This document shows, piece after piece, positions 1 to 11,720 of a stretch of DNA of 42,665 nucleotides (position 1 is the first letter of the stretch; the number at the start of each line of letters is the position of its first letter). A program made the translations under genes and the position numbers. Under the pieces are notes generated by a model. It was not told the DNA's origin. It saw only the letters and a list, made by a program, of their open reading frames with translations, and ran no database searches. Source of the DNA: Myxococcota bacterium (GTDB taxonomy: Bacteria; Myxococcota_A; UBA9042; DTJE01); assembly GCA_029975745.1 (NCBI GenBank), contig JARKOL010000126.1, positions 1-42,665 of the forward strand. Reading direction: 5' to 3'.

Positions 1-2760
1 AACTGCACCCTGGAGGACACGTGCCTGGGCGGCAGTTGCGTGGGCACCCCGATGGACTGCGACGACGGCCTGGTCTGCACCACGGATGGGTGCAGTGACG
101 GCGCATGTCGGCACAGCCCGGCACCGGGACACTGCTTCATCCAGGGGGTCTGCTACGTCGCGGACGAAATCAACCCCGACAACATCTGCCAGAAGTGCGA
201 TCCACCCCGGGTCCAGACCGTCTGGGGTCACAACAACGGCGCGACGTGCGATGACGGAAACGCCTGCACGTTCGATGATACCTGCAACCGTGGCGGCTGC
301 GACGGAACGACCTACGGGTGCGATGACGGACTGGCCTGCACGATGGACGTCTGCACGGGCGACGGCGGCTGCGACTTCGTGGTCCAGCCCGGCTTCTGCC
401 TGATCGAGGGGCGCTGCTACCAGGCCGGAGACAGCCACTTCCTGACGTCGTGCAAGGCCTGCATGCCCCTGGCAAGCCAGACCGACTGGACGGACCTGAC
501 CATCCCCTGTGACGATGGCAACGCGTGCTCGAAGGACGACGTCTGTCAGGACGGGTTCTGCACGGGCCTGCCCTACGTCTGCGACGACGGCATTTCCTGC
601 ACGACCGACCGCTGCGACGGGCTGGGGGGCTGCTCCTACGCCGTCCAGGTGGACAAGTGCCTGATCGGCGGGGTCTGCCGCAACGCCTACGCCACGAACC
701 CGGCTAACGTCTGCCAGGTCTGCCTGCCCAGCCTGTCCCAGACGAGTTGGCGGCACAACGACGGAGCCGCCTGCGACGACGGCGTCGCATGCACCCTGGG
801 CGACTACTGCCTTGGCGGCGCCTGCAACGGGCTTCCGTACGTGTGCGACGACGGCCTGTTCTGCACGAACGACATCTGCAACGGGGCCGGCGGCTGCACC
901 TACGAGCGCCAGCCGGAATACTGCCTGATCCAGAACCAGTGCGTGCTGGACGGCGAACGCAATCCCGCCAACACCTGTCAGGAGTGCGATGCCGTCGCGT
1001 CCCCCACCACCTGGATCGGCATCAGCGGGCCGCCGTGCAACGACGGCAACGCCTGCACGCTGAATGACGTCTGCACCAGCGGCGCGTGCGTCGGAACCCT
1101 GCACCCCTGCGACGACGGCGTGGTCTGCACGGCCGACATCTGCGACGGCATGGGCGGCTGCTCGTTCCCCCTGGCGCCGGGGTGGTGCCGGATTCAGGGC
1201 GTGTGCTGGCCCCAGGGTGCGCCGAAGCCGAACGACACGTGCCAGGCGTGCGTCCCGCAGGCCAGTACCAGCGACTGGACGGTGCTGGACGTCAACGAAC
1301 CCGAGATCTGCAACGGCATCGACGACAACTGCGACGGAATCACGGACCCGGAAAACACGTTCGGCTGCGTGTTCTACTACGTGGACGCCGACGAGGACGG
1401 ATTCGGGAACGGGGGCATCCCGCCGCGCTGCCTGTGCGCCCCCGAAGGGAACTATCGGGCGACCGTCGCGGGGGACTGCAATGACGACAACCCCTCGATC
1501 CACCCCGGTGCGACCGAGATCTGCGACTGGGTCGCCGGGCCCGGCTCGGCCCCCATCGACAACGATTGCGACGGACTGTTCAACCCGGAAGGCACCATGG
1601 GATGTGCGTTCTACCATCGCGACAATGACGGCGATGGACACGGCGTTCCGGGCGACTTCCGCTGTCTGTGCGAGCCGCAGGGCGTCTATAGCGCATTGAG
1701 CCCGACCGACTGCAACGACAACAACCCCTACGCATGGCTGGGCGCGCTGGAGATCTGCGACGGGCACGACAACGACTGCGACGGCCAGACCGATCCCGAG
1801 GGCGCGCTGGGGTGCTCGTTGTTCTACCGGGACGCCGACGGGGACGGATTCGGGGTCGGCTCGGAAAGCAGGTGTCTGTGCGGCGTCACCGGGGAATACA
1901 GCGCCACGCGCGCCGGCGACTGCGACGACGGAAACCCCGACGTGAATCCCGACGCCTTCGACGCGTGCAACGGCATCAACGACGACTGCGTCGGCGGGAT
2001 CGATGACGCCCCGCTGGCACTGATGTGCCCCACGGACCCGGGCGCGAACCTGAACGGCACCGTATCGTGCCAGGGTGGCGGTTGCCAGTTGATCTGCAAT
2101 GGCGCGATTCTCGCCCCGCCGCAGGGGGCCTGGCACGACAACGACGGCGTCCTGTTCAACGGGTGCGAGTGCCAGGATGACGCCTACTCGGTCGAGAGCA
2201 GGCACGACGTCTGTTCCAGCGCACGCGACCTTGGGGAAGTCAAGGACGACGGCGGCGTTCGCGTCGTCCAGGCGAACCTCGCGGCCCCCGGCACGTCGGA
2301 TTGGTGGCGCATCCGGGCCACCGACCTGACGCCCACGACCGAACCCGACGGCTGCGACAAGTTCAACTTCAAGGTGATCTTCCTGGACAACCCCGGGGAC
2401 GGGTTCCGGATCGACGCCTTCCGTGGGGGCTGCCAGGAGTTCAGGCGCATCTGCAGCAACGGAACGACGGTCGAGTGGGCCACCAACTTCCGGGACGCCT
2501 CGGGCCGTGGCGAGTGCGCCTGCTCGCCCCACCAGATCGACCTGTGTGACCCGCCCGAGGATCTGGCCGACTGCATCCGGAGGGTCGGCATCCAGAACTG
2601 CGGGTCGTGTCCGGGCATGGGGCAGCCCAACGCCAACCTCTGCACCGACAACTCCGAAGACTTCTACATCCGGGTCTTCCGCAAGGCCGGGGCGGCGCCG
2701 ACGTGCGCGAACTACCGACTGGAATTCTCGAACGGCAAGTACCCCTACAGCGGCAACTAG
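1..2760 (+). CDS. Cys-rich repeat protein with MopE-like putative metal-binding motifs (5' truncated by window edge)
   Basis: Frame 1 is open from base 1 through the listed ORF (40..2760). N-terminal half has repeated CDDGxxCTxDxCxxxGGC...NPxxxCQxCxPxxSQTxW units. Central part has about three EICNGxDDNCDGxTDPEGxxGC...YxDxDGDGFG...RCLC...DCNDxNPxxxPGAxEICD units, as in putative metal-binding (MopE-like) repeats. Confidence 0.85.
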   Translation, partial: NCTLEDTCLGGSCVGTPMDCDDGLVCTTDGCSDGACRHSPAPGHCFIQGVCYVADEINPDNICQKCDPPRVQTVWGHNNGATCDDGNACTFDDTCNRGGCDGTTYGCDDGLACTMDVCTGDGGCDFVVQPGFCLIEGRCYQAGDSHFLTSCKACMPLASQTDWTDLTIPCDDGNACSKDDVCQDGFCTGLPYVCDDGISCTTDRCDGLGGCSYAVQVDKCLIGGVCRNAYATNPANVCQVCLPSLSQTSWRHNDGAACDDGVACTLGDYCLGGACNGLPYVCDDGLFCTNDICNGAGGCTYERQPEYCLIQNQCVLDGERNPANTCQECDAVASPTTWIGISGPPCNDGNACTLNDVCTSGACVGTLHPCDDGVVCTADICDGMGGCSFPLAPGWCRIQGVCWPQGAPKPNDTCQACVPQASTSDWTVLDVNEPEICNGIDDNCDGITDPENTFGCVFYYVDADEDGFGNGGIPPRCLCAPEGNYRATVAGDCNDDNPSIHPGATEICDWVAGPGSAPIDNDCDGLFNPEGTMGCAFYHRDNDGDGHGVPGDFRCLCEPQGVYSALSPTDCNDNNPYAWLGALEICDGHDNDCDGQTDPEGALGCSLFYRDADGDGFGVGSESRCLCGVTGEYSATRAGDCDDGNPDVNPDAFDACNGINDDCVGGIDDAPLALMCPTDPGANLNGTVSCQGGGCQLICNGAILAPPQGAWHDNDGVLFNGCECQDDAYSVESRHDVCSSARDLGEVKDDGGVRVVQANLAAPGTSDWWRIRATDLTPTTEPDGCDKFNFKVIFLDNPGDGFRIDAFRGGCQEFRRICSNGTTVEWATNFRDASGRGECACSPHQIDLCDPPEDLADCIRRVGIQNCGSCPGMGQPNANLCTDNSEDFYIRVFRKAGAAPTCANYRLEFSNGKYPYSGN

Positions 2761-2789
2761 ATCCTGCCGGAACACAAGGAGCAAGCGAC

Positions 2790-3248
2790 ATGTCCCATCG
2801 ACACCCCTCGGCTCACCTCCCTGTCCGACGCCCCCCGTGTCGGGCGTTCCTGGCCCCCCTGCTGGTCCTCCCCCTGCTGCTGGCCGCCTGTGGGGACAAG
2901 GGGGCGCCCTACACGATCGAGGCCCCTGCCGTGACCTTGTCGGCCGAGGGTCAGGGGCAGGTCGCGATCCGGTTCGTCCCCCGCGCCGGATTCAAGTGGA
3001 ACGACGAGTTCCCCGCCCGCCTTCGGGTCGTGGACGCGGGCACGGCCACGCTGTCGAAGTCGGTCTTCACCCATGCGGACAAGGACTTCCAGGACCAGGG
3101 CGGAACCGGTGTCCTGGTGCTGGCCGTCAACGCCTCCGCCCCGGGTGCCACCACCCTGAAGGCCACGGCCGACTTTTCGGTGTGCAACGACGACGAGTGT
3201 CGCATCTTCCGAACGATTCCGGTCGAAGTCCCGATTCAGGTGCAGTAG
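2790..3248 (+). CDS. Small lipoprotein with DsbD N-terminal-like C-terminus
   Basis: Start at ATG 2790 after AAGGAG-type RBS. Signal/lipobox MSHRHP...LLVLPLLLAAC. C-terminal ADFSVCNDDECRIFRTIPVEVPIQVQ resembles the end of DsbD-alpha-like domains. Confidence 0.7.
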   Translation: MSHRHPSAHLPVRRPPCRAFLAPLLVLPLLLAACGDKGAPYTIEAPAVTLSAEGQGQVAIRFVPRAGFKWNDEFPARLRVVDAGTATLSKSVFTHADKDFQDQGGTGVLVLAVNASAPGATTLKATADFSVCNDDECRIFRTIPVEVPIQVQ

Positions 3249-3259
3249 CGGACACAAGG

Positions 3260-6145
3260 CTACTGCGAGATCCGGCAGGACACCTGGTAGTCCCAGGCGG
3301 TCCCAGGCTCGCCGCCGATCACCCGGACCGTGAAGGTGTCGTTCTTGCCCTTGGTGAACAGGCCGTTGACCGAGCCGCTGCCCGGCCCGGCAATGCCGCC
3401 CGGATACCGGGGATTGCCCTCATAGCTGGACTCGCCCCGCCAGCCGGTGTTCACGACCTGCATGCCGTCCGGGTAGTCGGCCAGGAACATGTCCGGAATG
3501 GAATAGGCATCGAATCGCAGGTCGAACACGGCCCCCTTCGGGATGTCCGAGATGTCCCAGGTGTCGATGGTCCCCGAAGACCCCCCGGACCCGGCCGCCT
3601 TCCACGAGTTGCAGATGGTCAGGTCGTACTCGCGCTCCGGAACCTCGCCGATCACCACCATCGCGGTTCCGGAGGCCAGGTTGTCGCCGCCGGCCTGGAC
3701 CACCGCGTACACGCCGAACGAGCCCTCGCGGACGAACCGGTGGAACACGGTGAACCCGGCGCGCCCCCCCTGGACCGTGGCCACCTGCTGCCCCAGCGCC
3801 TCGGGCGAACCGTCCCCGAAGTTCCACTGGAACGTGACCTGGCCCACGCCCGAGGGCAGACCGGTCGCCTCCATCGTGAAGGGATACTCGTTCTCCATGT
3901 CGCCCGCCAGGAAGGACGGCACGATGGTCAGCCGCGTGCCCACCGACACCTGCGCGCGCGCGTCCGCGATCTGCTCGCCCGTGTCCGTCCGCACCAGGAC
4001 CGCCGTCAGGATGTACGTTCCCGGAAGGGTGTACTCATGACGGATGACCGTCTGCGACCGGCCGCCCGAGACCGTCTCGACCGCGGCGTCGGTCGTGCCG
4101 TCCCCGAAGTCCCATTCGAACCGGACCTCGGTCAGTTCCGACGGAATCCTGGAGGCGGCCAGCGTGAAGGCGTACTGGCGCCCCACATCACCGTCCTCGA
4201 TCCCCGGCGGGTCGATGGTCAGCGACGTGTCCACCAGCACCTCGACGCGCGGCAGGCTCGTCGGATCATTCAGGGCATACGGCAGGCCGATCGCCCCAAA
4301 GAAGCTGTCGTACAGGTGGACGTTCAGGTCGTACGTGCCGTCCTCCCCCTCCTTCGGCGCCCAGTTCTGTCGGGCAATCCCGTCGGCGGGCATCGTGACT
4401 TCGACGATCTTCCGGGGCGGCGGCTGAGGCTCGCCGTCGGCGACGACCGGGAACGCGACGAATGCGGCGCGCAGGCCGTCCGCGTTGATCGCATCGGCCC
4501 GCAGGGTGACGTTTTCGGCGATGGTGACCTTGCGGGGACTTGCCTGAAGCCGGGGCCTGGGGGACTGCATCAGCATGCGCTTGTACTGGAACAGCACGAT
4601 GTCGATGCTGCTGATGCTGCCCAGGCCGATCTTTGACAACAGCTTGTTGGTCTCGGACAGGGTTTCCATCAGCGGCGACAGATCCGCGGAGACGCCGGCG
4701 TACACGTTCCACTCGGGGCCCTTGTACTGCCGATCATTCGGGTCGAACGGCAGCGCCAGCGCCAGGTCGGTCCCGGCAAAGAGCTTCAGACCGACGGTCT
4801 TGGCCGACAGCAGTTCCCAGTGCGCCAGCTGGATGGACTTCGCCAGCACGCCCCGGAAGAACGGCTCCACCTGGATCTTGAACTCGTGCTTCATGCCGCC
4901 GTCGAGCTTGCCCAGCGTGACCCCCTCACCGACATCCTCGCGCTCCTTGATGGGATAGAAGCCCTGCCCGCTGGCGTATCCGAACCCCAGTTTCACCTCG
5001 ATCCCCTTGTCCACCTTCGGCCCGGTCAGTTTCACCTCGCCCGCCGTGTATCCGACGGTGATTCCGACGCCAACCTCCGGCTTCAGCACCGGCGCGATGC
5101 CGATGGGGCCCAGGATCGGGATGAACGCGAACGGAATGCTGCCCAACTCCTGCACGCACTCCAGCTTCCCGGTCAGGCCGCCCGACAGGCTGACCTCGCC
5201 CACCGAGCCCGTGATGCCGGCACTGCCCCGAAGGTAGAAGTCGAACTGCTCGACACTGCTGGAAAACCACCCCTTCACGATCCGGACCTCGGCCACCGCG
5301 CGCAGACTCAGGCGCTGCTCCAACTGGAAGCCGCTGAACCCCACGTTCACGACGCTGGTTTCGCCCTTGCACTTCAACTTCGGCAGCGACAGGGCGCCGT
5401 ACAGGACGCCCTCCTCGCCGTCGTCGGGCGGCGGCTCGACCGCCTGGGATCCGTCACGACTGCTGCGCACCACGCGCGTCCCGTCGTCGTCCAGGACCAC
5501 ATCAAAGACGATCGGCGGTCCCTCGGCGATGACGTCCAGTTCCTCGAAGACCTCCAGCAGCGTCGCCGGCACCGTCTCGAAAGTCCGCCGCCCGCCCCCG
5601 TCCTCGACCACGTCGATGACCCGGTCCAGAAGGCCGCCGACATGACCGCCAAACAGGACCGTGCCCACGTCGATCGTCCCGGTCGCGGCGTTCCGGCGCA
5701 GCGTGACCAGCGCCCGATCGCGCAGGTCGGGATCCGGATACTCGATGGCAATCACGTCCTCACGGGACACCAGCACCGCCTGCGGCGTCAGCCCGGCAAT
5801 CGCGGCCACGACCGTCGCGGGGGTCGCCTTGCCCGAACTGACCGAGATCACGGCGGAGCCGGGCTGGAAGGAGGCCGCGGTCAGCTCGCCACTCTTGTTG
5901 ACCCAGACCACCTCCGGCGCGCTGGATTCGAACTGGAAGGACGCGCCGTCCACGACGCTGCCGTCGCCCCGGCGCACGACGGCCCGGATTCGCGCCTTCT
6001 GCCCCACCTCCGTGAACACGAAGAAGCTGTCCGAGGTGATCTCGACCCAGCCATCACCACCCGGGCCGGAGTCCCCGCAACCGGACAGCATCAGTACGCC
6101 CGCCAGGATCGAAAGCACCGCTCCCAGGAATCGTCCGCGCCCCAT
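3260..6145 (-). CDS. Large secreted lipoprotein with Ig-like and PKD domains
   Basis: ORF 3260..6181; ATG at 6145 has GGAGG 6 nt upstream. Lipobox LAGVLMLSGC. Two PKD-like units (FEWDFGDGTTDA..., FQWNFGDGSPEA...). Confidence 0.8.
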   Translation of the reverse strand: MGRGRFLGAVLSILAGVLMLSGCGDSGPGGDGWVEITSDSFFVFTEVGQKARIRAVVRRGDGSVVDGASFQFESSAPEVVWVNKSGELTAASFQPGSAVISVSSGKATPATVVAAIAGLTPQAVLVSREDVIAIEYPDPDLRDRALVTLRRNAATGTIDVGTVLFGGHVGGLLDRVIDVVEDGGGRRTFETVPATLLEVFEELDVIAEGPPIVFDVVLDDDGTRVVRSSRDGSQAVEPPPDDGEEGVLYGALSLPKLKCKGETSVVNVGFSGFQLEQRLSLRAVAEVRIVKGWFSSSVEQFDFYLRGSAGITGSVGEVSLSGGLTGKLECVQELGSIPFAFIPILGPIGIAPVLKPEVGVGITVGYTAGEVKLTGPKVDKGIEVKLGFGYASGQGFYPIKEREDVGEGVTLGKLDGGMKHEFKIQVEPFFRGVLAKSIQLAHWELLSAKTVGLKLFAGTDLALALPFDPNDRQYKGPEWNVYAGVSADLSPLMETLSETNKLLSKIGLGSISSIDIVLFQYKRMLMQSPRPRLQASPRKVTIAENVTLRADAINADGLRAAFVAFPVVADGEPQPPPRKIVEVTMPADGIARQNWAPKEGEDGTYDLNVHLYDSFFGAIGLPYALNDPTSLPRVEVLVDTSLTIDPPGIEDGDVGRQYAFTLAASRIPSELTEVRFEWDFGDGTTDAAVETVSGGRSQTVIRHEYTLPGTYILTAVLVRTDTGEQIADARAQVSVGTRLTIVPSFLAGDMENEYPFTMEATGLPSGVGQVTFQWNFGDGSPEALGQQVATVQGGRAGFTVFHRFVREGSFGVYAVVQAGGDNLASGTAMVVIGEVPEREYDLTICNSWKAAGSGGSSGTIDTWDISDIPKGAVFDLRFDAYSIPDMFLADYPDGMQVVNTGWRGESSYEGNPRYPGGIAGPGSGSVNGLFTKGKNDTFTVRVIGGEPGTAWDYQVSCRISQ

Positions 6146-6409: not shown

Positions 6410-6790
6410 CTACTTCTTGTGGCAGTCGTTGCAGAGCGTGGGCGCCTTGGTGTCGGCCTTCTTGGCCTTCTCGGCCTTGTGGCACTTCTGGCAGCTGGCG
6501 TGGTAGGCGTCCTTCGAAGAGGGGGTATCGCCTTCCTTGGCCGCCTTGTGACACTCGCCGCACTTCGGCTTGGACTTGTCGCCACCCTTGAAGTTGTGGT
6601 GGCACTTGTCGCACTTGATGTCCTTGGCGTGCGTCGCGTGGTCGAACGTCACATCGCCGCGCTTGCTCTTCACGGTGACCTTCGCGGGCTCGCCCGCGAA
6701 GCCCGTCGCCTGGAACGAGCCGATGACCAGCATCAGCGCCCCGGCCGCCAGCAGCAGCGCCCCCGCGACATTCTTCGAAAACACCTTCAT
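6410..6790 (-). CDS. Small periplasmic tetraheme class III (c3/c7-like) cytochrome
   Basis: Signal peptide MKVFSKNVAGALLLAAGALMLVIG. Four CXXCH motifs (CDKCH, CGECH, CQKCH, CNDCH) and FDHATHAKD. Confidence 0.85.
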   Translation of the reverse strand: MKVFSKNVAGALLLAAGALMLVIGSFQATGFAGEPAKVTVKSKRGDVTFDHATHAKDIKCDKCHHNFKGGDKSKPKCGECHKAAKEGDTPSSKDAYHASCQKCHKAEKAKKADTKAPTLCNDCHKK

Positions 6791-6887
6791 GACCTGACCT
6801 CCCATGGGTTGGAAATCCACCCGCTCCGGCCCCGGAGCGGCACGCGGCATGGACGCAGGTCCAAGCCGAGTATTTCGGTCCGAATTA

Positions 6888-7964
6888 TCACCCGCCGTGG
6901 CACATTTTGCACATCTTTGTGTCCCGACCCGCCGTCGGGTTCCAGCCCTTCGGGTGCGGGCTGCGCCCGGCCGTGCCGCCGACCCGGTGGCACGTGATGC
7001 AGTTCGATGCGGCGCCCCGGTCGTGGCACGACGCGCAGGACACGATGTCCCGGCGAGCCGCATCCCCGTGGAAGTCCGGGGACTTCACATTCATGGCCCA
7101 GCCGGCCGGATGGGGCGAGGCCCGATCACCACGCCGCTGCCCCTGGGCAACGCGCGCCTCCTCGTGACACGTCTGGCACTGGCGGGTCGAGTGGCACTTC
7201 AGACAGGCGGCCGGGTCCGTGCGCGCCTCGATCGGATGACGCGTCAGGAAATCGCCCCGGTGGACCAGTTGCCGATCGACCTGCTCCGAGAAGCGCAGTG
7301 CCTGGGGCATGCCCTCCAGACGATTGTGGCAGTCCGAGCAGGAATCCTGGCGATGGCAGTGCGCGCACACGTCCCCGTCGGTCTTGGCCAGGCTGCCGTG
7401 ACGGGCCATGAAGTCGGCATCGTGCGAGAACAGCGCGGTGGGGCGCGACGGGTTCTCGGCCAGGTCGCCGTGGCATGCCTTGCAGTCGATATCCCGGAAC
7501 TCCTTGCGATGGCAGGACATGCACATGTCGTGGTTCATCGGGCGGGCCGCCTGGGACGGCGCGGTCCGCTGGGCCACCCCGGCGTGGCACGGTTCGCACT
7601 TGCCCTCGGACACCTCGACGTGCAGCGCGTGGCTGAACAGGACCCCTTGGGACGCCGGACGCGGCGTCCACGTTCCCGGATTGGCCGGGTTCGTGTGGCA
7701 CAGGCCGCACTCGCCGTCATTCTTCTCGTGGCAGTCCAGGCACTGGGCCTCGCGGTAGCGCATCGCGGACGTGACCTGATCGGACTCGATGACCGCCTGG
7801 TGGCAATCCGAGCAACCGATCTCGTTGTCGATGACGTGTAGCTTGTGGCTGAACTTGATCCGGTCCTCGCGCTTGACCAGGGATCCGCATGCGAACACGG
7901 TCCCCAGCCCGACGGCCGCGATCGCCACCATCCAGATTCCCTTGGACACGTGCAGTCGCTCCAT
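6888..7964 (-). CDS. Multiheme c-type cytochrome, 13 CXXCH motifs, probable lipoprotein
   Basis: Start MERLHVSKG at 7964. 13 CXXCH motifs counted (CSDCH, CLDCH, CGLCH, CEPCH, CMSCH, CKACH, CAHCH, CSDCH, CLKCH, CQTCH, CASCH, CITCH, CKMCH). N-terminal hydrophobic segment ending VFAC. Confidence 0.88.
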   Translation of the reverse strand: MERLHVSKGIWMVAIAAVGLGTVFACGSLVKREDRIKFSHKLHVIDNEIGCSDCHQAVIESDQVTSAMRYREAQCLDCHEKNDGECGLCHTNPANPGTWTPRPASQGVLFSHALHVEVSEGKCEPCHAGVAQRTAPSQAARPMNHDMCMSCHRKEFRDIDCKACHGDLAENPSRPTALFSHDADFMARHGSLAKTDGDVCAHCHRQDSCSDCHNRLEGMPQALRFSEQVDRQLVHRGDFLTRHPIEARTDPAACLKCHSTRQCQTCHEEARVAQGQRRGDRASPHPAGWAMNVKSPDFHGDAARRDIVSCASCHDRGAASNCITCHRVGGTAGRSPHPKGWNPTAGRDTKMCKMCHGG

Positions 7965-7972
7965 CGGACACC

Positions 7973-9373
7973 TCACTTGACGAACGTGTCGAATTCGTAC
8001 TGGAACTTCAGCAACCCCGACCACGCCTGCGTGAAGTCGGGATTCACATGCACCGCAACGTCACCCTGGAGACGCGCCCCCTTGCCCAGGTCGCATCCGG
8101 CGGTCAGCGAAACGACGTGCGAACGCTTGTAGCCGCCATCCCCGGTGTGCCGATAGGGCGTCACCCCCGACGGGTCCATCCGCCGCCAGACGTCCCACCC
8201 CAGCACCGCGTCGTCATAGAAGTAGTTGTTGATGTCCGCGGTGACCAGCAGGCGGCGGAAGGCCTCGGGCCGATACGCCGCGAACACCCGCGCCTGCGTG
8301 TAGGCGTTCTGGAAGCCCTTCAGGCGGGCGACCTCCAGCCCCACCGAACTGCCCGCGCCCGCACCGTCGAAGCGCAGGATCGGGCGCAACCCGACCTCGT
8401 AGCCGTGATCGTCATCCTCGTAGTGGTAGTAGCGCCCGTACAGGTTCGCGCCCAGCCACCCGGAGCCGTAGTAGGCCACGTCGGCCCCGACCTTGTGGTA
8501 GTCCGCGTCGGTGAACACGCTGAAGATCGACGTCTTCGGGATGCGGCCGGACGGGTCGTACATCCCGTAGTTCAGGGTGAAGCGCCAGTCGCGCCCCAGA
8601 AGGTACGTCAGCGAGTTCGACGTCTCCTGGAAGGACGCGGACACCAGGTCCACCAGCACGTAGCCGGCGAACTCGACCTGTCGGAAGTACCTGAAACTGT
8701 AGTCGACGCCCAGGTTGGACCGATCGAACTGGCCGTCGGCCCGCTGCCCCGTATAGGACACCCCGATATTGCCGAACTGCCAGGGTCGATAGGCGATCCG
8801 GCCACCAAAGACCGTCCGGTCCAGGTCGAAGTCCGACCCCTGGTACGGCACCCAGCCGCCGAACGCCGAGATCTCGAGGGGGATCTTCGGGCGAACGCGG
8901 ACGTAGACACCGTCCATCATCGTGTTGTTTCCAGCGCTTTCGTACAGGATCTGCCGCCCTGCGCGCACCGTCACCAGGTTCCTGGGATGGGTGTAGGTCA
9001 CCGTGCCGATCAACAGGTCCCCGGCAACCGAACGTTCACCGGCCTGGTGGAACGGGACCAGCCGGCCCCACCCGCTCATGTGGATCGAGAAACCAGGCAC
9101 GCCGACGTCGTCCGCGCCCATCGTCAGGTACTGGTACATCGGCATCTGGAACAGGCGGGACGTGGGATCGTTCGGATCCAGCACCTGTCTGCCCAGGAAG
9201 TAGGTCGTCGAGGATCCGTAGACCCTCGTTCGACCTTCCGACCGAGGCGACTGGGCCTGGACCGTGTCGGCCGGCTTGTCCCCCTCATCGGCCAGGACGG
9301 GCAGGGCCAGCGACAGGGTCAGGGCCCCCAGGATCGCCCCGGAAATCCCGAGGTTCCTTGCACCGATTGCCAT
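7973..9373 (-). CDS. Outer-membrane beta-barrel protein, putative porin partner of the adjacent cytochromes
   Basis: Start MAIGARNLG at 9373, signal peptide ending LALPVLADE. Alternating aromatic/polar strands throughout, C-terminus LKFQYEFDTFVK. Lies between two multiheme cytochrome genes. Confidence 0.75.
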   Translation of the reverse strand: MAIGARNLGISGAILGALTLSLALPVLADEGDKPADTVQAQSPRSEGRTRVYGSSTTYFLGRQVLDPNDPTSRLFQMPMYQYLTMGADDVGVPGFSIHMSGWGRLVPFHQAGERSVAGDLLIGTVTYTHPRNLVTVRAGRQILYESAGNNTMMDGVYVRVRPKIPLEISAFGGWVPYQGSDFDLDRTVFGGRIAYRPWQFGNIGVSYTGQRADGQFDRSNLGVDYSFRYFRQVEFAGYVLVDLVSASFQETSNSLTYLLGRDWRFTLNYGMYDPSGRIPKTSIFSVFTDADYHKVGADVAYYGSGWLGANLYGRYYHYEDDDHGYEVGLRPILRFDGAGAGSSVGLEVARLKGFQNAYTQARVFAAYRPEAFRRLLVTADINNYFYDDAVLGWDVWRRMDPSGVTPYRHTGDGGYKRSHVVSLTAGCDLGKGARLQGDVAVHVNPDFTQAWSGLLKFQYEFDTFVK

Positions 9374-9407
9374 GACAGCCTCCTTCACGTCCGAAGCCCC
9401 GAGACGC

Positions 9408-11720
9408 CTACCACCGTTCCGGACCATGACACATCGGGTCGCAGGTCCGCGTTCCGGCATCCCAGGTCCCGTTTCGAATCGCCACGTCCACCTTGCCGTC
9501 CAGGTGTTTCAGCGTGTCCAGGATCGCGGTGCCGAGCGTGTTCGTGACCCCCATGTGGCACCAGGTGCAGTCCGCCGCGATGCCGTTGTGATCCTCGTAG
9601 TTGCCGGGATGCTTCCCGGTCTTCGGGGGCAGGCCGTGACACGCGTCGCAGGACGACTGGGAGCCGTCCACCACGTTCCAGATCGGGGTCTGGTGCTTGC
9701 CGCCGACCAGGTCCGCTCCGTGGCAGTAGGTGTTGGTGCAGGTCCCTGCGACCCGGTCGAAGGACGGCGCCAGGCCTCCGGTCGTGGACAGGTCGCCGAA
9801 CACGACCTCGGCGGGACGCAGCGTGTCCATGTGCCCCGGGCTGGTCCACGTCGCGGGCACGATGTGACACGCGTCGCAGTCCAGGGGCACGGTGACGCCC
9901 CGGGTCGCCCGCAGGTGCGCCTGGTGCGCGCCCACCGTCATCAGCGCCGTGTCCGTGCCGCCTTCCAGATCGCGGGGCGGCGCGTCGTTGTCCAGCCCGC
10001 CATGGCAGGCGTTGCACTGGGGCGACGCATTGTGCTGGACCACGCCATCGATGTGCGTGGCGTTGCCCGGCCGCAGGCCCCCGTCCACCGTGGCCGTCGC
10101 CTCGTGGCAGGTGCCGCAGGCCGGCACGTTCGCCGGATGCGTCCCGCCCGGAGGCAGTCCGTGGCAGGAACCGCAGGCCACCTGGGAGCCGTCCACGGTC
10201 GTCCACAGCGGCGCAGTCCGACTTCCCCCGTCCAGAGTGGCGCCATGACAGTAGGTGTTCGCGCAGGTGACAGTGCCGCCGTCCCAGGTGGGCTGGGCCC
10301 CGCCGGCGACCGACAGGCCCCCGAACACGACCTGGACGGTGCCGTCCAGGTGTCCGGCATCATCGACCGCCGCCGGCACCACGTGGCACGACGTGCAGAC
10401 CACGGGCTGCCCGATGCATTGCAGGGCCAGCAGGTGCGCCTGATGGGCGCCCACCGAGCGCAGCGCCGTGTCGTTCCGCCCCAGCGTGTCCACCGGCGGG
10501 GCGGGATTGTCGGTGCTGCCGTGGCACGAGTTGCAGGTGCCGCCGGCCGTCACCTGGACGACCCCGTCGATGTGCTGGGCCGGCTTCGCAATCCGGCCGT
10601 CGGCCCCGACCGTGTCGTGGCAGTTCGCGCAGTTCGCCCCGGCCGGGTGGGCACCGCCCGACCGCAACGTCGCCGGCGCCATCCCGTGGCACGTGCCGCA
10701 CGCATCCTGGGTCCCGTCCACCTTCGTCCACTTCGGCGCCGTCACCGAGCCCCCGTCCAGGGTCGCCCCGTGGCAGTAGGAACCGGCGCAGGTCTCGGTG
10801 GCGACGTCCCAGGTCGGCGTCGCGCCGTCCAGCCGGCCCCAGGCGCCGAAGACGACCTGGGTCGTCCCGTCCAGATGGCCGGGCGACTCCAGTTCGGAGG
10901 GGACGAGGTGGCAGTCCGCGCACGTCAGCGCCGGCGCCAGCGTCGTGCCCTTCAGGTGTGCCTGATGGGCCCCCACGGTTCGCAGCGTGGTGTCCGAGCG
11001 CCCCGCCAGATCGACCGGCGGCGCGGCGTTGGCCGCGTTGCCGTGACAGGAGTTGCACGCGGTCCCGCCCCGGGCCTGGACCTTGCCGTCGATGTGCAGA
11101 TCGGGTCGCGCAATCGAGCCGTCGGCGGCCACGGTTTCGTGGCACATCGCGCAGTTGGCTCCGGCCGGGTGCGCCCCGCCCGAGCGGACCGTGGCCGGCC
11201 CCAGCCCGTGGCAGGAGCCGCAAACGACCTGCCCGGAGGGATTGTCCGCGTTCCAGGTCGGCTCGACGTTCGTCCCCCCGTCGAGGCCCGCGCCGTGACA
11301 TGCCACGTTGCGGCAGGTGACCCGCGCCGTTTCGCCGGTGCCATTCGCCACCACCTCGGGCACCAGGCCCCGGGCAATCGCGATGCCGACGAAACGAACC
11401 TCGGCCGGCAGCGCCGAGTCGATGTGTCCTACCGAATCCAGTTCGTCCGGGATGCGGTGGCAGGTCACGCAGGAGACCGAAGCCCCCAGCACCCCCCCCA
11501 CCAGGTGCGCCTGATGCGCGCCCACGCCGCGGAACGTCCGCTCGACGTTGCCGCGGCTGTCCGGTGCCGGTGCCCAGGGCGCCTGCGTACCGTGGCACCC
11601 GGCGCACGCTTCCTGCGGAGGCACGTCGGCCCCGCCCTCCGCGTCCCGGTACTCGGAACACCCCACCATCCCCCAGGCCACGCAGGCCGCCATCGCGACC
11701 CCGAACGTCCGCTTGCCCAT
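9408..11720 (-). CDS. Modular multiheme lipoprotein cytochrome with CX2CH, CX4CH and one CX3CH motif
   Basis: Start MGKRTFGVAMAACVAWGMVGC at 11720, lipobox. 16 CXXCH plus four CX4CH (CRNVACH, CAGSYCH, CANTYCH, CTNTYCH) plus terminal CDPMCH. Resembles the Geobacter-type CxxxxCH/CxxCH domain family. Confidence 0.88.
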   Translation of the reverse strand: MGKRTFGVAMAACVAWGMVGCSEYRDAEGGADVPPQEACAGCHGTQAPWAPAPDSRGNVERTFRGVGAHQAHLVGGVLGASVSCVTCHRIPDELDSVGHIDSALPAEVRFVGIAIARGLVPEVVANGTGETARVTCRNVACHGAGLDGGTNVEPTWNADNPSGQVVCGSCHGLGPATVRSGGAHPAGANCAMCHETVAADGSIARPDLHIDGKVQARGGTACNSCHGNAANAAPPVDLAGRSDTTLRTVGAHQAHLKGTTLAPALTCADCHLVPSELESPGHLDGTTQVVFGAWGRLDGATPTWDVATETCAGSYCHGATLDGGSVTAPKWTKVDGTQDACGTCHGMAPATLRSGGAHPAGANCANCHDTVGADGRIAKPAQHIDGVVQVTAGGTCNSCHGSTDNPAPPVDTLGRNDTALRSVGAHQAHLLALQCIGQPVVCTSCHVVPAAVDDAGHLDGTVQVVFGGLSVAGGAQPTWDGGTVTCANTYCHGATLDGGSRTAPLWTTVDGSQVACGSCHGLPPGGTHPANVPACGTCHEATATVDGGLRPGNATHIDGVVQHNASPQCNACHGGLDNDAPPRDLEGGTDTALMTVGAHQAHLRATRGVTVPLDCDACHIVPATWTSPGHMDTLRPAEVVFGDLSTTGGLAPSFDRVAGTCTNTYCHGADLVGGKHQTPIWNVVDGSQSSCDACHGLPPKTGKHPGNYEDHNGIAADCTWCHMGVTNTLGTAILDTLKHLDGKVDVAIRNGTWDAGTRTCDPMCHGPERW

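Follow-up and report, generated by a model that had tools for sequence, protein, structure and literature searches.

A putative porin-cytochrome conduit of Myxococcota with a predicted lipidated inner cytochrome and an outer cytochrome of pentaheme repeats

The stretch of DNA analysed here, referred to as the window, comprises positions 1 to 42,665 of contig JARKOL010000126.1 from a Myxococcota bacterium (assembly GCA_029975745.1) and carries a candidate porin-cytochrome conduit. Four consecutive minus-strand genes at 6410-11720 were confirmed (Table 1; coordinates include stop codons): one for a lipoprotein with 21 hemes, one for an outer-membrane β-barrel, one for a cytochrome with 13 hemes and one for a tetraheme c3 cytochrome. 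Genes, strand and heme counts agree with those given by the original prediction. The gaps it had reported among the first three genes were also found, being 34 nt between the 21-heme and barrel genes and 8 nt between the barrel and 13-heme genes, whereas the c3 gene lies further off, at 97 nt. A chance origin of the heme motifs was ruled out by their density (13 in 358 aa, 21 in 770 aa) together with matches to curated families (TIGR01904, E 7e-60; PF14522; PF02085).

Table 1. Genes of the cluster and repeat units of its large cytochrome
Feature	Position	Strand	Description
Large multiheme lipoprotein	9408..11720	-	770 aa, 21 hemes, TIGR01904/PF09698 class; proposed surface wire
Outer-membrane beta-barrel	7973..9373	-	466 aa, 22 predicted strands, without CxxC, no known family
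13-heme cytochrome	6888..7964	-	358 aa, 13 CxxCH, predicted lipoprotein (VFAC), 11 (near-)invariant non-motif His
Tetraheme class III (c3-type) cytochrome	6410..6790	-	126 aa, 4 CxxCH, signal peptide, PF02085 E 6e-16
Pentaheme unit 1	11133..11681	-	N-terminal cap, holds lipobox Cys; heme spacers 2-2-4-2-2
Pentaheme unit 2	10611..11132	-	174 aa; 60% identical to unit 3
Pentaheme unit 3	10092..10610	-	173 aa
Pentaheme unit 4	9516..10091	-	192 aa
C-terminal tail	9411..9515	-	Last heme, CDPMCH

The barrel protein begins with a signal peptide ending VLA-DE, and its AlphaFold model (35 sequences in the alignment; predicted local distance difference test score, pLDDT, 85; predicted template-modelling score, pTM, 0.76) showed 22 long strands behind a disordered leader, as counted from the element list of the model with one four-residue element left out. 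This number falls inside the range of 18-22 strands reported for the porins of porin-cytochrome (Pcc) clusters (PMC4245776). The absence of the CXXC known from MtrB, pointed out earlier, extended to the whole protein. Membership of the MtrB/PioB family was rejected, as no match to TIGR03509 was obtained and an hhalign comparison with four TIGR03509 proteins of the same phylum gave a non-significant probability of 18%. TIGR03509 was found neither in the genome of the window nor in 52 genomes of its class; the search was shown to work by its detection in 8 of 141 genomes of the phylum. No match was obtained when the barrel was searched against Pfam and NCBIfam at E values up to 1, or by profile against the sequences of the PDB.

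The 13-heme protein matched the Cytochrome_C7 profile (PF14522), and its own profile matched PDB 3ov0 over the N-terminal half; a match to TIGR03508 was weak, partial and far below the cut-off. In 38 relatives the set of 13 heme motifs was nearly always complete, with 12 in a few; ten non-motif His were invariant, an eleventh was present in 37 of the 38, and two further positions varied. The Cys that follows the signal sequence (C26) was kept in at least 90% of these relatives, in contexts resembling a lipobox (ALAGC, SASAC, GMPAC; VFAC in the window). The original prediction had rightly described a multiheme protein and overlooked this lipobox, by which the 13-heme protein is itself predicted to be a lipoprotein, unlike MtrA. 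The tetraheme c3 cytochrome is probably a periplasmic electron carrier.

To survey the conservation of the locus, 53 genomes around the window were sampled, and the barrel was present in 25 of them with 25-69% identity. A 12-13-heme open reading frame follows the barrel in the loci read, and another multiheme frame precedes it in most close relatives where the contig is long enough. Because the barrel alignment was too diverse for a genome scan, 85,462 species genomes were scanned with the 13-heme alignment instead, yielding 46 loci (L025-L070). In 38 of these (L025-L062), nearly all titled Myxococcota, Myxococcales or Deltaproteobacteria, the barrel lies directly upstream of the 13-heme gene, as it does in the window. 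An automatic rule recovered the adjacency in 37 of 39 loci, the window included; it missed L048 and L062, shown to be adjacent by their coordinates, since long stop-to-stop frames mislead it. This strictly conserved adjacency holds over deep divergence, with barrel identity down to about 20%. Four-heme frames come after the 13-heme gene in L025, L031 and L032. The c3 gene was dropped as a fixed part of the conduit, as it follows the 13-heme gene in some close relatives only. Another of the scanned loci, L068, from a metagenome-assembled genome of a groundwater Deltaproteobacteria member, encodes at 1373-4978 a CxxCH protein of 1202 aa with 51 hemes.

The large cytochrome had been assigned to the CxxxxCH/CxxCH class, and its match to TIGR01904 reached 198.8 bits over five stretches, against a cut-off of 27. 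Its 21 CXnCH motifs (16 CxxCH, four CxxxxCH and one CxxxCH) stand behind the lipobox GMVGC and follow a repeating pattern, with spacers of 2-2-4-2-2 and distances of ~45, 46, 28, 23 and 32 residues. This defines a pentaheme unit of ~174 residues, of which the window protein has four, plus one last heme. A PDB search with the unit found no homologous chain. Five units were counted in the sister genome (26 hemes), four in L029 (21) and seven in L026, L027, L030 and L032 (36). A CxxxxCH-class cytochrome also stands at the core in distant relatives, where it has 20 hemes in four units, 15 in three, or 13 in about two units that follow a different start, so the repeat numbers across relatives are 2, 3, 4, 5 and 7. 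In one sister clade the ends are alike in heme spacing and the middle consists of diheme repeats of ~55 residues, for 26, 28 or 36 hemes in all.

The first and last units were orthologous across the closer species, and the internal units resembled one another, with identities of 60% in the window, 74% in L025 and 85% (89% in DNA) in L029. Tandem Repeats Finder detected no DNA-level repeat within the window, indicating an old age of the units here. As the units are 40-85% identical, their counts are unlikely to stem from assembly collapse, though draft genomes can still mislead. When these repeat states, the diheme form included, were placed on a tree of the barrel and 13-heme protein, at least ten changes were required, and the diheme form arose once. 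From these sequences, it seems that gain or loss of whole five-heme blocks has made the outermost heme protein longer or shorter in evolution. Each unit holds about five non-motif His, and their supply follows the heme number (21 hemes and 23 His in the window; 26/26, 28/28 and 36/36 in relatives), so that every heme can be bis-His ligated.

The general porin-cytochrome design was thus present: a barrel coded together with an inner multiheme cytochrome and, in the same operon, an outer lipoprotein multiheme cytochrome predicted to be surface exposed. The 22-strand barrel model, the lipoboxes on both large cytochromes and the conserved synteny support the conduit reading of the original prediction, and the cluster very likely codes for a porin-cytochrome conduit that crosses the outer membrane. 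The "unusual composition" suspected earlier was right as well, and the unusual features turned out to be the predicted lipidation of the 13-heme protein and the construction of the surface cytochrome from pentaheme repeats.

Some observations weigh against this assignment. The 13-heme protein gave a poor AlphaFold model (pLDDT 64), unusable for judging its fit inside the barrel. A Foldseek search with the barrel model returned generic barrels only (porins, ushers, AlgE), with template-modelling scores of about 0.5 or less, as might be expected of an ordinary porin merely neighbouring the cytochrome genes. Such a coincidence is highly improbable given the adjacency in 39 of 39 loci at barrel identities down to about 20%, and no porin family was matched. 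Furthermore, a paralog group widespread in other Myxococcota (L164-L170, L174) has a 13-heme protein without an obvious lipobox and a barrel-like neighbour, with no surface cytochrome nearby, which means that a surface partner is not obligatory in the wider family.

This two-gene form also favours a model in which the large cytochrome is periplasmic, serving as an electron store or a periplasm-spanning wire, while only the barrel and the 13-heme protein span the membrane. We regard this as unlikely. The lipobox of the large cytochrome is followed by Ser, a residue that favours sorting to the outer membrane by the Lol system. It is also the outer cytochrome that varies, in keeping with exposure at the surface as in Geobacter (PMC6148476), although two-gene Pcc clusters in Anaeromyxobacter (PMC4245776) again speak for the periplasmic placement.

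Two decahemes of the OmcA/MtrC family (TIGR03507) were found on other contigs of the same genome, at C367:8432-11323 (L186) and C109:370-2403. The former (E 9e-116) bears collagen-like Gly-X-Y triplets directly behind its lipobox. Collagen-like stalks, taken as runs of at least six triplets, were present in 22 of the 24 loci examined, and family matches to collagen-like adhesins agree with this finding. A TIGR03507-type gene adjoins the conduit in L032, L050, L056, L058 and L060. Beside the conduits of L041 (8890-12258), L043 (1065-3968), L048 (909-3908) and L045 (3252-6173) stand nine-heme proteins with the same kind of stalk, of 9-31 triplets. TIGR03507 did not match the two of these that were tested (L041, L043), which gave a partial match to a UshA-like selenoprotein. 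A literature search on collagen with multiheme or decaheme cytochromes returned no relevant paper; it covered open-licence papers only and is weak evidence of novelty.

Among the 52 genomes of the class, 22 had both the conduit and TIGR03507, three the conduit only, two the decaheme only and 25 neither (Fisher p = 3e-9). In family f1 TIGR03507 was present in 8 of 9 genomes with the conduit versus 0 of 4 without it (p = 0.007), and in family f6 in 13 of 14 versus 0 of 8 (p = 3e-5). These p values overstate the evidence because the genomes are related; nevertheless two families show the same pattern. Since MtrB was not found, this co-occurrence is most simply read as the decahemes receiving electrons from the conduit, which suggests that OmcA/MtrC-family proteins may dock on a non-Mtr conduit. 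As a further point to be set against our interpretation, the co-occurrence may instead reflect shared loss of respiratory genes.

From the genes, motifs, lipoboxes, barrel prediction, synteny, repeats and co-occurrence we infer a topology, a complex, a direction of flow and a docking of decahemes as follows. The 22-strand barrel would sheath the 13-heme cytochrome, which would be lipid-anchored at the periplasmic face and carry electrons through the pore. Outside, the 21-heme lipoprotein would act as a bis-His wire, with four pentaheme units and one heme at its end, and lead the path further from the cell. Between quinone enzymes of the inner membrane and the 13-heme protein, electrons would be shuttled by the tetraheme c3, and the collagen-stalked decahemes coded elsewhere would probably be further outlets, here and in most conduit-bearing relatives.

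Besides NrfHA and an octaheme cytochrome, the same genome codes for Qrc-like subunits and for a fusion of an NrfD-like protein with a six-heme domain, and this set allows either direction of flow. The fusion, at C367:3110-5197, is an NrfD/HmcC-like membrane protein near the collagen-stalk decaheme and a possible quinone link. In the inward direction, the surface wire would take up electrons from Fe(II), a mineral or another cell and hand them on, by way of the 13-heme protein and then c3, to a menaquinone reductase of the Qrc type. Homologs of QrcA (above cut-off), QrcB and QrcD are indeed coded on C67 (L187 6409-11224), and in sulfate reducers Qrc accepts electrons from tetraheme c3. Moreover, the one NapC/NrfH-type quinol oxidase found adjoins NrfA, and no CymA-like gene lies beside the conduit. 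Inward flow is nonetheless rather doubtful: Qrc-like complexes serve internal electron flow too, the fusion protein on C367 could oxidise quinol, and both OmcA/MtrC decahemes and surface cytochromes of the CxxxxCH class are characteristic of outward reducers. Outward respiration is preferred in view of the decaheme partners.

Pcc clusters have been described in six phyla, including two-gene forms in Anaeromyxobacter (Shi et al., 2014, PMC4245776), and both the presence of several unrelated conduits in one Geobacter and the replacement of outer cytochromes have been shown (Otero et al., 2018, PMC6148476). The cluster shares with Pcc systems such as Geobacter OmbB-OmaB-OmcB (PMC4245776) a barrel of 18-22 strands, an inner multiheme cytochrome and an outer lipoprotein cytochrome, in which atypical heme motifs are common. 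It differs in having 13 hemes and a predicted lipid anchor in the inner protein (eight hemes in OmaB), and 21 hemes, up to 36 in relatives, in an outer protein built of pentaheme repeats (12 in OmcB); Geobacter Omb and Ext proteins were compared by description, not by sequence. The Anaeromyxobacter Pcc (group IV; PMC4245776), also of Myxococcota, has a similar inner cytochrome of 338-344 aa with 12-14 hemes, but is reported without an outer cytochrome gene; compared by description, its nearest counterpart may be the two-gene paralog group. With MtrCAB, PioAB and MtoAB the cluster shares the working principle of a barrel sheathing a multiheme cytochrome. However, MtrB and PioB have 26-28 strands, MtrA has ten hemes and is described as periplasmic and not lipidated, and the outer cytochrome of the MtrCAB operon is a TIGR03507 decaheme in place of the TIGR01904 protein found here. 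ExtABCD, ExtEFG and ExtHIJKL of Geobacter sulfurreducens (PMC6148476) are several non-homologous conduits with a conserved inner and a variable outer cytochrome, as here, yet by description ExtA and ExtG are periplasmic with 12 hemes, and the outer Ext cytochromes have five or 12. Nanowire cytochromes of the GSU1996 type (PDB 3ov0) likewise extend a heme chain by repeating units, but are soluble rather than outer-membrane lipoproteins; the units here are pentaheme and contain CxxxxCH. The conduit family was not described in the available passages of PMC12133095 and PMC12977616.

Elsewhere in the window, a predicted 961-aa lipoprotein with two PKD domains lies downstream of the c3 gene (3263-6145, minus strand), with no link to the conduit indicated, and a Cys-rich protein with repeated CDDGxxCT motifs is cut by the window edge (1-2760, plus strand).

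Judged by all the sequence evidence, then, the conduit is conserved and Pcc-like in design, not Mtr, with a predicted lipidated inner cytochrome and an outer wire that seems to change length in whole units. Tentatively, a further conduit architecture can be put forward in which a 13-heme protein with a lipid anchor occupies a 22-strand barrel, the count of pentaheme blocks sets the length of the surface wire (one sister clade having diheme blocks in their place, between similar end regions), and collagen-stalked OmcA/MtrC decahemes dock without MtrAB. If OmcA/MtrC-family proteins do work without MtrB, the outer part of a conduit and the part that spans the membrane would be shown to be exchangeable. 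The occurrence of the barrel in about half of the sampled genomes places the potential for extracellular electron transfer in a broad set of uncultured Myxococcota. The natural series of two, three, four, five and seven pentaheme units on one barrel and 13-heme base makes the relation of length to electron-transfer rate or reach directly testable. The family thereby bears on the way in which heme wires grow longer during evolution, and its decahemes on a possible exchange of conduits by surface cytochromes.

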